Part shown: positions 26,810 to 36,021 of the stretch, one piece after another
Layout: each line of letters begins with the position of its first letter
Numbering within the stretch: the stretch's first letter is position 1
DNA from: Truepera sp. bin119
GTDB lineage: Bacteria > Deinococcota > Deinococci > Deinococcales > Trueperaceae
Assembly: GCA_002239005.1 (NCBI GenBank)
Contig: MPNL01000032.1
Coordinates: forward strand, 1-36,392
DNA length: 36,392 nucleotides
Reading direction: 5' to 3'
Notes under the pieces: model-generated
Told to the model about the DNA's origin: nothing
The model's database searches: none
What the model saw: only the letters and a program-made list of their open reading frames with translations
Position numbers and translations under genes: made by a program

Positions 26810-27743
26810 ATAATCGTATACCGACTTTCCGCCCCCCCTGTTCGAGCCCAAAGAATAGCCATCTGCCATGCTGGATGGATGGTAGCGAGATACGAAACGA
26901 AAACCGTTGAGCACCTCGGCCTGGTAGCGGGAATGTTCGATGAGCTAGGGATCGGCGAACTCATCGACCAGTTCATCCCCCAGGACAAGGACCAGCGGTT
27001 CGTTACCATCGGGCAAGCTGTCAAGGCGATGGTCATTAACGGTCTCGGGTTCACCAACCGCCGGCTTTACCTTGCCCCCAGGTTCTTCAAGAACAAACCT
27101 ACTGACCAGCTCATCGGGCCGGGGATCAAAGCTGAGCACCTTAACGACGGCGCTCCCAGCAAAGCCCTTGATCGCCTCCATCAGTTCGGCGTTACCGAGC
27201 TGTTCACCATCATCGCTCAACAAGCCGCCACCAGGCTCGAGCTCAACCCGAAGATTGCCCACCTGGACTCGAGTAGTTTCCACCTGGACGGCAGCTACAA
27301 CAGCGGTGACGATGAGCCTGTCGACGGTGTGATCCAAATCAAGCGAGGCTACAGTCGTGATAACCGACCTGACCTGAACCAAGTCATACTTGAACTCATC
27401 GCCGAGAACACTGCAGGCTTGCCCCTGTTGATGCGGCCCTTAAGTGGCAACGCGAGTGACAAGACCAGCTTCCAGGAAGCGGTCTTGAGACAGGCTGGGC
27501 AGCTGCAGAACGCCGGAGTCGAGGTGCTGGTCACCGATAGTGCCGGGTCAGGACACCCTGCAAACCCTGAACCAAACGGACGTTACCTGGGTAATGGGTG
27601 TCCCTGCGACCCTGACGCAGGCGAAGAAGCTGCTTGACGGGTTGGTCGTTTCAGATTTTTCAACTCTTGCCAAGGGGATGGAGCGTAGCCGGGTGGATAC
27701 CGTCTACGCCGGGGTCAAACAGAGGTGGTTGGTGATCCGCTCT

Positions 27744-27765
27744 GACCCGAAGAGTCCGTCCTTGG
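27744..27765 (+). repeat. Dispersed short repeat copy A (inside transposase gene)
   Basis: Contains the shared core ACCCGAAGAGTCCG followed by TCCTTGGC. Translated in the transposase frame it contributes DPKSPSLA after RWLVIRS; without these 24 bases the text would read IRS-ARERARGS, which fits IS1634 relatives as I remember them. Confidence 0.6.
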
Positions 27766-28127
27766 CTGCCCGGGAGAGAGCCCGGGGGTCGGCTGAACGG
27801 CAACTGCTGAAAGGTAGTGAGGAGGAGCGGAAGCGGTTTAATCGCTTGCGAACTCAGGAGTTCAGTTGCGAAGCCGATGCCCGGGCTGCCCTGCTCGCTT
27901 ACCAGGCGTCTTGCCGGGTGCTGGACCTGATCGATCCCAAGGTGCGAGCGAGGAAGCACTACCCGAAGGCTGGGAGGCCCGCTAGGAAGGCTGTTCCCGA
28001 AAGGGTCGGCTATCGGATCGAGGGGTCGGTCGCGGCGAGCACCAAGAGTTTCGAAGAGCAGTTGGAGCGCGCCTCCCGGTTCATCGTGGCTACCAACAAC
28101 ACCACCGGCGAGCAGCTTTCAGATGTT

Positions 28128-28149
28128 GACCCGAAGAGTCCGATCTCGG
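28128..28149 (+). repeat. Dispersed short repeat copy B (inside transposase gene)
   Basis: Identical over 21 bases to copy at 29968-29988. In frame it adds VDPKSPIS between EQLSD and VLQAYKG; family members read 'ELSDxxLLxxYKG' without it. Multiple-of-three insertion keeps the reading frame. Confidence 0.6.
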
Positions 28150-28558
28150 TGCTACAGGCTTACAAGGGTCGGTGGAGCGGGGCTTCAGGTTCTTGAAGGA
28201 CCCGATGTTCCTGGCCTCAACACTAGTTCTTGAAAAAAGCGCAGAGGATCATGGCGTTATTGTTCGTGATGACGCTCTGTCTGCTGGTCTACGCTGCTAC
28301 CTGGTACCGAGTCCGTAAAGGTCTTGGCTGAGAATGGGGAGGTGGTGCCGGATCAGCGAGGCAAACCTACGGAGCGGCCGACGGCCAAGTGGGTGTTTGA
28401 GTTATTCCTGGATGTGCACCTGCTTCTCATCGTTACCGACACGATTCAGGTTATGGCGATGAACCTCGTTGATGAGTTACAGGTGCTGCTGGAGTTGCTC
28501 GGACCGGCCTATTCGGAGGTGTATTCATGATGCCGAACGAGGGGGGGCGGAAAGTCGG

Positions 28559-28842
28559 CTGATGAATAGTACACTTCCTAGACAATACTGTCAAATGTCT
28601 GTAGGGGCAGGCAAAGGGCGATAAGGCGAAGCCGACCAATGGTCCGAGCAGGACCGTACCGCAGAGGGACCTGGATGTCGTCTAGCCTATACGACGCCAC
28701 CATCGTGGCCGATTCCCGCCATCAGTGCCCCTTTCGGAGCTTCCGGCCATAAAATTGGGACCCCCAACTCAGCAGCTATCGCAGGATGGCTAACCCCTGA
28801 ACCACCTTCACCTGGGTGCCTCCTGCACCTCGCCACATCGCC
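28559..28842. other. Gene-free stretch right of IS1634
   Basis: About 280 bp between the IS right end and the channel fragment. No coding frame or recognisable RNA was found. Confidence 0.5.
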
Positions 28843-29079
28843 TCAGCTCACCTTATGTGATCCGCCTACGACTCGGGTGACGCCATCCATACGTCTGACC
28901 ATTACGGTCACCGTCTCTTCCAATCTGGCTACCTGACTGCGCAATGATCGGACCTCCTCCAACAGCTGTTGATCCACATTCACTGGAACCCGGTTGTCGG
29001 ACCCCACAATGAAAGAGGCCAGGTTCGCCGTTAAGGCACCGAAGAGTCCGATTCCAGCAAACATGAGGACGCTGGCCAC
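28843..29079 (-). pseudogene. Two-TM potassium channel, C-terminal fragment
   Basis: The 78 residues begin VASVLMFAGIGLFGALTANLASFIV, the second (inner) helix of ion_trans_2-type K+ channels, followed by a linker and a coiled coil (LLEEVRSLRSQVARLEETVTVMVRRM). The pore loop with the TVGYG selectivity filter and the first helix would lie upstream, but an in-frame TAG occurs a few codons before the GTG start (29079). Only a membrane helix plus cytosolic coiled coil could be made. Divergent from the cupin-globin gene, 57 bp apart. Confidence 0.6.
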
Positions 29080-29136
29080 GATGCCCGGACACTAGACTCG
29101 AGAGGTCATACAATGTCGCCATAAGGAGAAAAACAC

Positions 29137-29847
29137 ATGGACTTCGACAGACTACCGCCCGGGCTTGTTCCGAGCAGCAGCTCACTCATCTTTACAGCAA
29201 ACACGATACCCGATGCGATTCAGAGGGAGCACACGCTGGCCGCTGGACACTGGGGAGTTCTGCATGTATTCGAGGGCAGCATCCGTTTTGTGGACCTTGA
29301 GGCTGCAGACGAGCATGTCATCTCAGCCCCGGACCTCATTACCATTCATCCCCAAGTACCGCACCGAGTGGCTGTGGAAGGCTCCTTGCGTTGCCGCATC
29401 GACTTCTTTCGCGAACCCGAAGCCGACTCCTCAATGCGAACGCCTGGAGCGTTTGCCGACGAGGCAGTGCGACTCAGCTTCGAGCGATGTGAAGCAAATG
29501 GGAACTTTGCGGAAACCTTCTACAACACCTTCTTGGGCTCCTCCCCGGAAATCTCACCATACTTCGCTGCCACGGACTTCGAGAGGCAGCGAAAGGTACT
29601 CCGAGACTCGGTCTACGTGATGGTGACTAAGGACGTGGCAGACCCGGAGATGCGGAGAATGCTGGACAGACTAGGAAAGGCGCACAGCCGGGACAAGAGG
29701 AATGTACTCCCAAAACTGTATGAACTGTGGCTGAACAGCATATGTGATACCGCTGCTGTACTGGACCCGGATTGGAACGACGATCTTGAGAGGAAGTGGA
29801 GAGTGCGTCTACGGGCCGGAATGCAGATCATCATGGCGGCCTATTAG
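29137..29847 (+). CDS. DUF1971 (YeaR/TehB-like cupin) - globin fusion protein
   Basis: 236 residues in two domains. Residues 1-95 match the small cupin-like DUF1971 domain found in YeaR and at the end of TehB-like proteins: LPPGLVPSSSSLIFTANTIP, then HTLAAGHWGVLHVFEGSIRF, then PDLITIHPQVPHRVAVEGSL and the closing RIDFFREP. Residues 105-236 match single-domain bacterial globins: VRLSFERCEANGNFAETFYN with FLGSSPEISPYFAATDFERQ, and the probable proximal haem His in LGKAHSRDKR, ending PDWNDDLERKWRVRLRAGMQ. AAGGAG precedes the ATG at 29137. Inference: a haem protein handling O2 or NO with an attached cupin; YeaR is nitrate/NO-responsive in E. coli. It is intact although surrounded by broken genes. 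Confidence 0.75.
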   Translation: MDFDRLPPGLVPSSSSLIFTANTIPDAIQREHTLAAGHWGVLHVFEGSIRFVDLEAADEHVISAPDLITIHPQVPHRVAVEGSLRCRIDFFREPEADSSMRTPGAFADEAVRLSFERCEANGNFAETFYNTFLGSSPEISPYFAATDFERQRKVLRDSVYVMVTKDVADPEMRRMLDRLGKAHSRDKRNVLPKLYELWLNSICDTAAVLDPDWNDDLERKWRVRLRAGMQIIMAAY

Positions 29848-30186
29848 CGGCCTGCTAACTTGACAGCTACTTGGAAGAGGCTCGTAGAGCCCGGGTGTGA
29901 CCGACCGCACGTTGGCCGAGGCCAAGGTCGGACTCTTCGGGCCTGTGGAACCCACTACCAGCAGTTAACCCGAAGAGTCCGATCTCGGCGCGGTGGTGAG
30001 GTTGCGCTACCGGAGCTAGACTGGGGCAGCGGGGATAGCCCCTATGTGACTGGCTGCCAGTCGGTTCCCCTGCCCCCCTGCTCACCTGTCGCCGGGAGAC
30101 CCGAAGAGTCCGACCTTGCCCGGCCTTCGTTGAGCGTTTGTGGTGAGCAGGAGCTCGAGAGCTCACGCAGCAAGTGTCGCCGGGGT
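29848..30186. other. Gene-free stretch with short inverted and direct repeats
   Basis: About 340 bp after the cupin-globin gene hold three of the five copies of the CCCGAAGAGTCCG repeat plus a second small direct repeat (CCCGGCCTTCGTT near 30116 and 30194). No supported coding sequence. Confidence 0.6.
29922..30118. repeat. Dispersed short repeat copies C, D and E
   Basis: Copy C on the minus strand at 29922-29941, copy D at 29968-29988 and copy E at 30099-30118, both plus strand. C and E are perfect inverted repeats over 19 bp (core CAAGGTCGGACTCTTCGGG at C), so a transcript could form a 19-bp stem closing a ~160-nt loop, or C could pair with the nearer D over a shorter stem. Confidence 0.75.
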
Positions 30187-35540: not shown

Positions 35541-36021
35541 GAATCCAGCGAATCCGTCCTTGCAACTCTGGCACACTCTAAATCCGATCAGTTAACCCCG
35601 CAGCCATCGCTGGAGAGCGTCTCTCATATAGCTGCCGGCCCCGAGGTTGGGATAGTGGCCGCTTGAGTGATCTACACTCCCGGGCCCAGTTGTAGACCAG
35701 CACCCCCCAAGCTCCCAGAACCCGCTTAGTCTCGGTAGTCCTGGCGAAGGCTAGGCTCTAAGGCTGGGGTCCCCCCCTGGGGGTACGGATTCGCTGGATC
35801 AGCGATAGCACTGGCCTTGCCCTCCCTAATCTTGCCATCCCAGACCCGTAGCAAAAACGGACTCTACGGGTCCAACGAAGCCGTCCTTGTCCGCCTTTAG
35901 GGAGTGCTCTTGCGTTCGCTGAACTCGCTCTGGCAACTCAGGCAGCGAATCCAGCGAACCCGTCCTTAGTAACGGATCCGGTCTGGTCCGTAGCTCTTGC
36001 GGGTCCAGCGAACCCGTCCTT
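35541..36021. repeat. Interspersed ~21-bp repeats within the element
   Basis: Four plus-strand copies at 35541-35561, 35868-35888, 35947-35967 and 36001-36021 share TCCARCGAAnCCGTCCTT; a fifth, partial and inverted, lies at 35786-35801 (ACGGATTCGCTGGATC). The CGAA...TCCGTCCTTG portion also resembles the dispersed repeat at 27744-27765. Spacing is irregular (327, 79 and 54 bp between starts), unlike a CRISPR; no cas genes are near. Confidence 0.75.

Follow-up and report, generated by a model that had tools for sequence, protein, structure and literature searches.

Does the short sequence that recurs in and beside a transposase gene of this DNA represent a mobile element, and if so, what is the mobile unit and how does it come to lie where it does? 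In the 36,392-nt stretch analysed here (the window), the initial annotation had listed five copies of a core sequence and had proposed that a small mobile palindromic element entered the transposase gene in frame, twice. All five core copies were confirmed as placed, at 27744 and 28128 in the transposase, at 29922 in inverted orientation, and at 29968 and 30099 in non-coding DNA. With up to two mismatches allowed, the window contains 13 matches to the core as compared with 2.4 expected, which exceeds the number in all of 100 shuffles, and a second cluster of elements, absent from the initial annotation, is located at 35544-36021 (Table 1). The non-coding copies form an inverted pair that had been described as perfect over 19 bp; the uninterrupted match covers no more than 14 bp (CCCGAAGAGTCCGA), and 17 of 20 positions agree overall. 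A search of the window and four loci against Rfam yielded no match.

A near-copy at 29038-29050, unmentioned in the initial annotation and located in an open reading frame on the minus strand (28853-29185), matches the core with a single mismatch and reads GIGLFGALTA, similar to an ion-channel segment. It lacks the 3′ end of the element and was rejected; it is probably ordinary coding sequence, and the match probably a coincidence. A further stretch following the element (CGGTGGTGAGGTTGC...) is shared between the window (29968-30029) and L120 (L120:1799-1861) and is apparently another dispersed repeat.

Table 1. Elements, target site and host transposase in the window
Feature	Position	Strand	Remarks
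IS1634-family transposase pseudogene	26882..28534	+	hosts elements 1 and 2; PF14104 DUF4277, E=1.5e-39
Target CTGA directly 5′ of element 1	27742..27745	+	G, A (and C) complementary to element TCCG
Element 1 (18 bp), CCCGAAGAGTCCGTCCTT	27746..27763	+	in transposase frame; adds six residues, reads DPKSPSL; covariance-model score 39.4 bits
Element 2 (18 bp), CCCGAAGAGTCCGATCTC	28130..28147	+	diverged 3′ end; same transposase frame as element 1, reads DPKSPIS
Element 3 (18 bp)	29924..29941	-	non-coding; inverted relative to element 4; empty counterpart in stretch L058
Element 4 (18 bp), CCCGAAGAGTCCGATCTC	29969..29986	+	non-coding
Element 5 (18 bp), CCCGAAGAGTCCGACCTT	30100..30117	+	non-coding
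Element of TCCAGCGAATCCGTCCTT subfamily	35544..35561	+	
Element TCCAGCGAATCCGT-CCTT	35760..35798	-	split by nested hairpin element of 21 bp (35764-35784), which elsewhere is inserted as exactly 21 bp
Element CCCGTAGAGTCCGTTTTT	35853..35870	-	abuts element at 35871 (nested insertion)
Sister-family element TCCAACGAAGCCGTCCTT	35871..35888	+	internal GC replacing TC
Element TCCAGCGAACCCGTCCTT	35950..35967	+	CC variant
Element TCCAGCGAACCCGTCCTT after CGGG	36004..36021	+	target-side G and element-side C both changed, complementarity kept

The Element Is Inserted as a Precise Unit of 18 bp

The transposase pseudogene extends over three frames, with the N-terminal part reaching to approximately 27634, the middle part at 27594-28193, and the remainder in the third frame. 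The middle part is 57% identical to an intact transposase frame of 551 amino acids in the relative G016 (L129), in which exactly six residues are missing at both element sites, and in more distant IS1634 relatives the residues are likewise missing where the sites can be aligned. Both octapeptides noted at these sites in the initial annotation are absent from the relatives in other genomes wherever an alignment is possible; their presence as ordinary sequence in close homologues, one of two refuting outcomes named there, was thus not observed. While the in-frame insertion into the transposase was thus borne out, the inferred size of 24 bp was not, because the gap in IS1634 relatives measures exactly six residues at either site, corresponding to 18 bp or six codons. 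As the transposase is already a frameshifted pseudogene, it demonstrates insertion and not tolerance. Its two inserts are now free of frame constraint.

For a comparison of filled and empty sites, strict copies in 80 stretches (338 kb including the window) were grouped by their flanks, resulting in 176 copies at 102 independent loci. At 24 independent loci we observed near-identical paralogous DNA of the same genome, with the same flanks, that lacks the element. The filled and empty versions differ by exactly 18 bp, YCCNNNGARTCCGNYYTT, at 22 of these loci, and at the other two the alignment left 19 bp. Neither duplication nor loss of target sequence was observed in these comparisons. The dinucleotide preceding the element is the same in both versions at 13 of the 22 loci (GA-GA at eight, TA-TA at two, CA-CA at two and AA-AA at one); however, at the remaining nine the best empty paralogue carries a different dinucleotide, which counts against the explanation favoured below. 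A further limitation is that this evidence comprises paralogues within one genome and alignments with proteins of other genera, without any close strain. Parsimony favours insertion as the direction of change, given that the flanks belong to paralogous IS copies or genes and that the same dispersed sequence recurs as the insert in every case. The empty sites at 24 independent loci show precise insertion, in support of the small mobile element entering genes that was initially proposed. In addition, elements are inserted into one another, forming composites of 36 bp. We infer from the near-identical filled and empty paralogues, together with the copy number, that the element has been mobile and copied recently.

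The Element Is Abundant in a Single Genome

The family comprises at least 150 copies in the genome of 3.2 Mb. The 12-mer CCGAAGAGTCCG has 99 matches (52 forward and 47 reverse) as compared with none for the reversed control, and the wider motif GAYCCNNNGRRTCCG has 269 as compared with seven in the control. Copies are dispersed genome-wide and not confined to the IS1634 element, a possibility that the initial annotation had named as a refutation of its proposal. The strict 20-mer motif GAYCCNNNGARTCCGNCCTT, consisting of the target GA and the element, occurs 130 times in this genome; no match was found in 110 other genomes of the phylum or in the reversed control. A covariance model based on 100 different copies yielded at least 152 matches in this genome and at most one weak match in each other genome of the family. 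Likewise, the exact 20-mers of the two main subfamilies were not found in genome and viral contig collections, from which this genome and very near ones were possibly excluded. A 400-kb sample of the relative G016, screened for comparable dispersed short hairpins, yielded mostly compositional GCTCGAGC words. Among the genomes compared, the element is therefore confined to one. Many copies lie within 100 bp of contig ends (e.g. G000 C14:2, C43:14, C78:36, C8:76 and C60:76), suggesting that the assembly breaks at element-bearing repeats and that the true copy number is probably higher.

The Target Is Complementary to an Internal Segment of the Element

Over the 102 loci the consensus reads C(64%)-N-G(84%)-A(97%) ^ [Y C C N N N G A R T C C G t c c T T] ^ G(64%)-G(58%). 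Position -1 is an A at 99 loci, position -2 a G at 86 and position -4 a C at 65, and a G is present at +1 in 65 and at +2 in 59. The segment R-TCCG of the element is complementary to the target CNGA together with the first base of the element, Y. Correspondingly, the target tetranucleotide matches the complement of TCCG at a mean of 2.83 of four positions in register, as compared with 0.8-1.25 when slid. The inner pair Y1-R9, which lies wholly within the element, is CG in 72 and UA in 28 of 100 rows and broken in none, and its covariation score was not reached by any of 500 shuffles; one further row, outside the aligned set, carries CA. The switch between CG and UA was observed with no fewer than four different loops (GAA, AGC, AAC and GGA). 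No fold is predicted for the 18-mer alone, and CGGA plus the element is predicted to form a hairpin of 5 bp with a loop of 7 nucleotides. Two observations count against this model: position -3 shows almost no preference, and for an element preceded by CTGA the hairpin is not predicted. As CNGA is complementary to the TCCG of the element and the adjacent inner pair shows covariation, target and element are linked by the pairing, and since the structure is formed jointly by the two, a guide-like role of the pairing is favoured.

Sister families provide a further view of this pairing. Copies with an altered internal dinucleotide frequently retain complementarity to their flank (GG with CC, GC with GC, GA with TT). 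At one locus both GA/TC and GG/CC versions exist and the empty paralogue carries GA, which indicates that some of the covariation arose after insertion, either by selection or by hairpin-templated correction. Part of the covariation may thus result from hairpin-mediated correction and not from the choice of target. Moreover, we observed a second hairpin family, ACCCCCAGCGGGGGACCCCAG, which is inserted as exactly 21 bp after GT and has AC following its hairpin; those of its copies for which an empty version was seen are located within 18-mers or adjoin them. The complementarity in register, the covarying sister families and the GT/AC family do not by themselves establish that the pairing determines specificity; pairing as the targeting step is inferred and is the best model, though an unproven one.

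Possible Mechanisms of Mobility

We consider it likely, though by no means settled, that the repeat is a very small non-autonomous mobile element, of which an exact unit of 18 nucleotides is copied to new sites by an enzyme acting in trans, with pairing choosing or positioning the site. The unit YCCNNNGARTCCGNYYTT would be copied directly 3′ of a C-N-G-A-like tetranucleotide, usually before GG, without duplication or deletion of the target. In the inserted state, the target CNGA and the first base of the element would pair with the internal R-TCCG around a loop of 7 nucleotides. The inference that this pairing selects or positions the insertion site would make it resemble the pairing of cleavage site and guide in IS200/IS605 single-strand transposition. 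The reaction is attributed to an enzyme in trans by inference only, as none was identified. A search for the Y1 transposase (PF01797) had no match in the element's own assembly, which is 97% complete, and the same profile was positive in five of 14 controls. An RVT_1 search of the genome for reverse transcriptases revealed one truncated fragment of the group-II type only, with no elements beside it. This fragment, at a contig end in L158 (G000:C22:1-1000), is followed by domain-V-like sequence. More tentatively, and with the balance of our judgement leaning against it, the element might be self-addressing, in that its internal TCCG pairs with the target, and families with another segment (AC in the 21-bp family, CC and GC in sister families) go to, or stay matched with, other sites complementary to it.

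Several other explanations have to be weighed against this proposal. The possibility that the repeat is ordinary sequence, i.e. a conserved peptide motif, a sequencing adapter or chance, could draw on the near-copy at 29038, which looks like a chance coding match, but we give it practically no credence: it is refuted by the empty sites, and is likewise at odds with the 99 exact 12-mers as compared with none in the control, the copies in all frames and in non-coding DNA, and the covariation. An RNA intermediate is conceivable, in which a small RNA enters transcripts at CNGA^GG by a pairing-guided, splicing-like reaction and is then reverse-transcribed into the genome. Recognition of the target by a short pairing immediately upstream of where the element enters, and the lack of a target duplication, would fit reverse splicing as well, and the genome does contain the one group-II-type reverse-transcriptase fragment. 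However, this gene is single, truncated and at a contig end without adjacent elements, a ribozyme cannot fit into 18 nucleotides, and both orientations relative to genes are common, where transcript-borne insertion should favour the sense orientation. With orientations so balanced and only a single truncated reverse transcriptase, we regard this route as less likely, and on the whole as improbable.

Alternatively, no dedicated mobility may exist, and host polymerases may copy the hairpin by template switching during replication or repair, with the flanking GA and GG as microhomology to an existing copy. This explanation remains possible, even if we likewise assign it a low probability: donor and target share their flanking bases (GA on the 5′ side, GG on the 3′ side), nested copies are abundant, and correction within the hairpin would account for double changes such as GA/TC to GG/CC. 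Yet exactly 18 bp are inserted at most sites, also with TA, CA or AA before the element, whereas copying by microhomology is usually less precise, and no such burst was found in any of 110 other genomes. Finally, the element could be a REP mobilised by a RAYT transposase or belong to the CGTC-REP/RPE elements, since it is a repeat with a short hairpin, an unpaired stretch resembling CGTC beside the stem and some inverted pairs, and the CGTC repeats RPE-4 and RPE-6 likewise enter genes (PMC3733652). We deem this very improbable, as membership already fails on the defining features. No Y1_Tnp gene was found; the pairing of 5 bp with a loop of 7 nucleotides (3 when a C-G pair is counted) differs from stems of 8-9 bp with loops of 4-5 nucleotides; the CGTC stretch is on the 3′ side of the stem; and the element has no stem in the absence of its target. 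Thus, the suggestion of a mobile palindromic element like the Rickettsia RPEs holds for the behaviour, but membership in the RPE/CGTC-REP group does not by the published definition (PMC3733652). The non-autonomous element copied as an exact unit by an enzyme in trans remains our preferred reading.

Comparison with Known Small Repeats

The closest known kind are the cyanobacterial small dispersed repeats (SDRs): the element works like an SDR, but stands outside the described SDR families. In Nostoc and relatives, SDRs are reportedly 21-27 nucleotides in length (Elhai et al. 2008, Genome Res. 18:1484), and an RNA route is said to have been proposed for them. Among SDR-type features, the element has the high copy number of a dispersed repeat of approximately 20 nucleotides, the precision at empty sites and the compensatory changes (Y1-R9); sequence homology, judged by the lack of exact 20-mer matches in the genome and viral contig collections, and a cyanobacterial host are missing. 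Both are mobile units of approximately 20 nucleotides with a shared secondary structure and compensatory changes, are restricted to a lineage, occur in several families per genome with nested insertions, and have no known enzyme. In contrast to SDRs, the element comprises 18 nucleotides, slightly below that range, differs in phylum, sequence and target (CNGA^GG), pairs with the target itself, and is often inserted in protein-coding genes. To our knowledge, mobile units of about 20 nucleotides have been described in detail only once, for these cyanobacterial repeats, and their mechanism has been open since 2008. The element adds an independent, smaller and very active case in another lineage, for which the exact target and product sequences are available. 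With exact sequences, a second family and a rule of pairing that can be tested, the mechanism therefore becomes accessible to experiment. A new targeting principle among very small mobile repeats is possible; if the self-addressing reading were true, the element would be among the smallest known mobile DNAs, with base-paired target choice and an undescribed enzyme.

The Nostoc SDRs (Elhai et al. 2008) are cited in PMC3116915 and PMC3733652. CGTC REPs have stems of 8-9 bp, loops of 4-5 nucleotides, a terminal CGTC tag and a CCA tail (PMC3733652). Like Rickettsia RPE-4 and RPE-6 and other CGTC REPs, the element is a small palindromic repeat found in frame within genes without a known dedicated transposase; unlike these, it has a target-element pairing of 5 bp, a loop of 7 nucleotides and a YYTT end, and no tag in such a position. 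REP/REPIN elements with RAYT transposases carry a GTAG tag and short imperfect hairpins (PMC3116915). The element shares with them the short imperfect hairpin and the dispersal as singletons and inverted pairs, but it lacks the GTAG tag, no RAYT is present in the genome, and single units are mobile and occur in coding DNA. In the logo of the 102 independent loci, the GTAG tetranucleotide is absent at the foot of the hairpin.

In IS200/IS605 elements, a single strand is inserted 3′ of a short target tetranucleotide, to which an internal guide is complementary, without duplication of the target. The element likewise inserts 3′ of a defined short target without duplicating it, but comprises 18 nucleotides in total and has neither a TnpA (Y1 HUH) nor a pair of left and right ends. 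Transposition of this single-strand type thus serves as the best formal analogue, by analogy only. Mitochondrial GC clusters, double-hairpin elements and byps are likewise very small hairpins that invade genes as well as one another. Unlike the element, these are organellar, longer and unrelated in sequence, and bypassing is unnecessary for the element, since its length of 18 is divisible by three.

Elements in Protein-Coding Genes

Elements in open frames occur in both orientations and in all three phases. The loop variants GAA, AGC and GGA are open in all six frames, and the GTA variant contains TAG in one. Being 18 nucleotides long, and with no stop codon in any of the six frames of its most frequent variants, the unit lengthens a protein by six residues without a frameshift and thereby survives inside genes. 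Six-residue insertions can thus be seeded into many kinds of protein without a frameshift, and annotators should be aware that peptides such as DPKSPSL, DPANPSL and TRRVRPW are derived from the element. An interpretation of D-P-x-S/N-P-S-L as a conserved protein motif was rejected, since copies are found in each of the six frames as well as outside coding DNA; the covariation of bases 1 and 9 (CG/TA), which a protein motif would not require, likewise speaks against it.

The host genes encode IS transposases, HsdM, Type ISP and other DNA methyltransferases, a Fic protein and a TAXI binding protein, and include intact restriction-modification genes. One Type ISP restriction-modification gene has an open frame of at least 1317 residues, and those encoded by the element are absent from four relatives. 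In dnaX (DNA polymerase III tau/gamma; L055:337-2115, + strand), normally an essential gene, an antisense element lies in the proline-rich tau linker. Alignments to PDB entries provide weak context only: a short gap coincides with the element in the Fic gene, and the best alignments of the TAXI and HsdM genes do not cover it.

Elements were observed in several restriction-modification or DNA methyltransferase genes (L069, L127, L112, L061 and L080), apparently out of proportion to the usual number of such genes; the elements may persist mainly in DNA acquired by horizontal transfer. In addition, a CRISPR-like array with at least 17 repeats of GTTTCCGATCCCCATGAGGGGTAATGAG is located at L098:26-1074 (G000:C41 near 60.3-61.4 kb), approximately 0.7 kb from element insertions.
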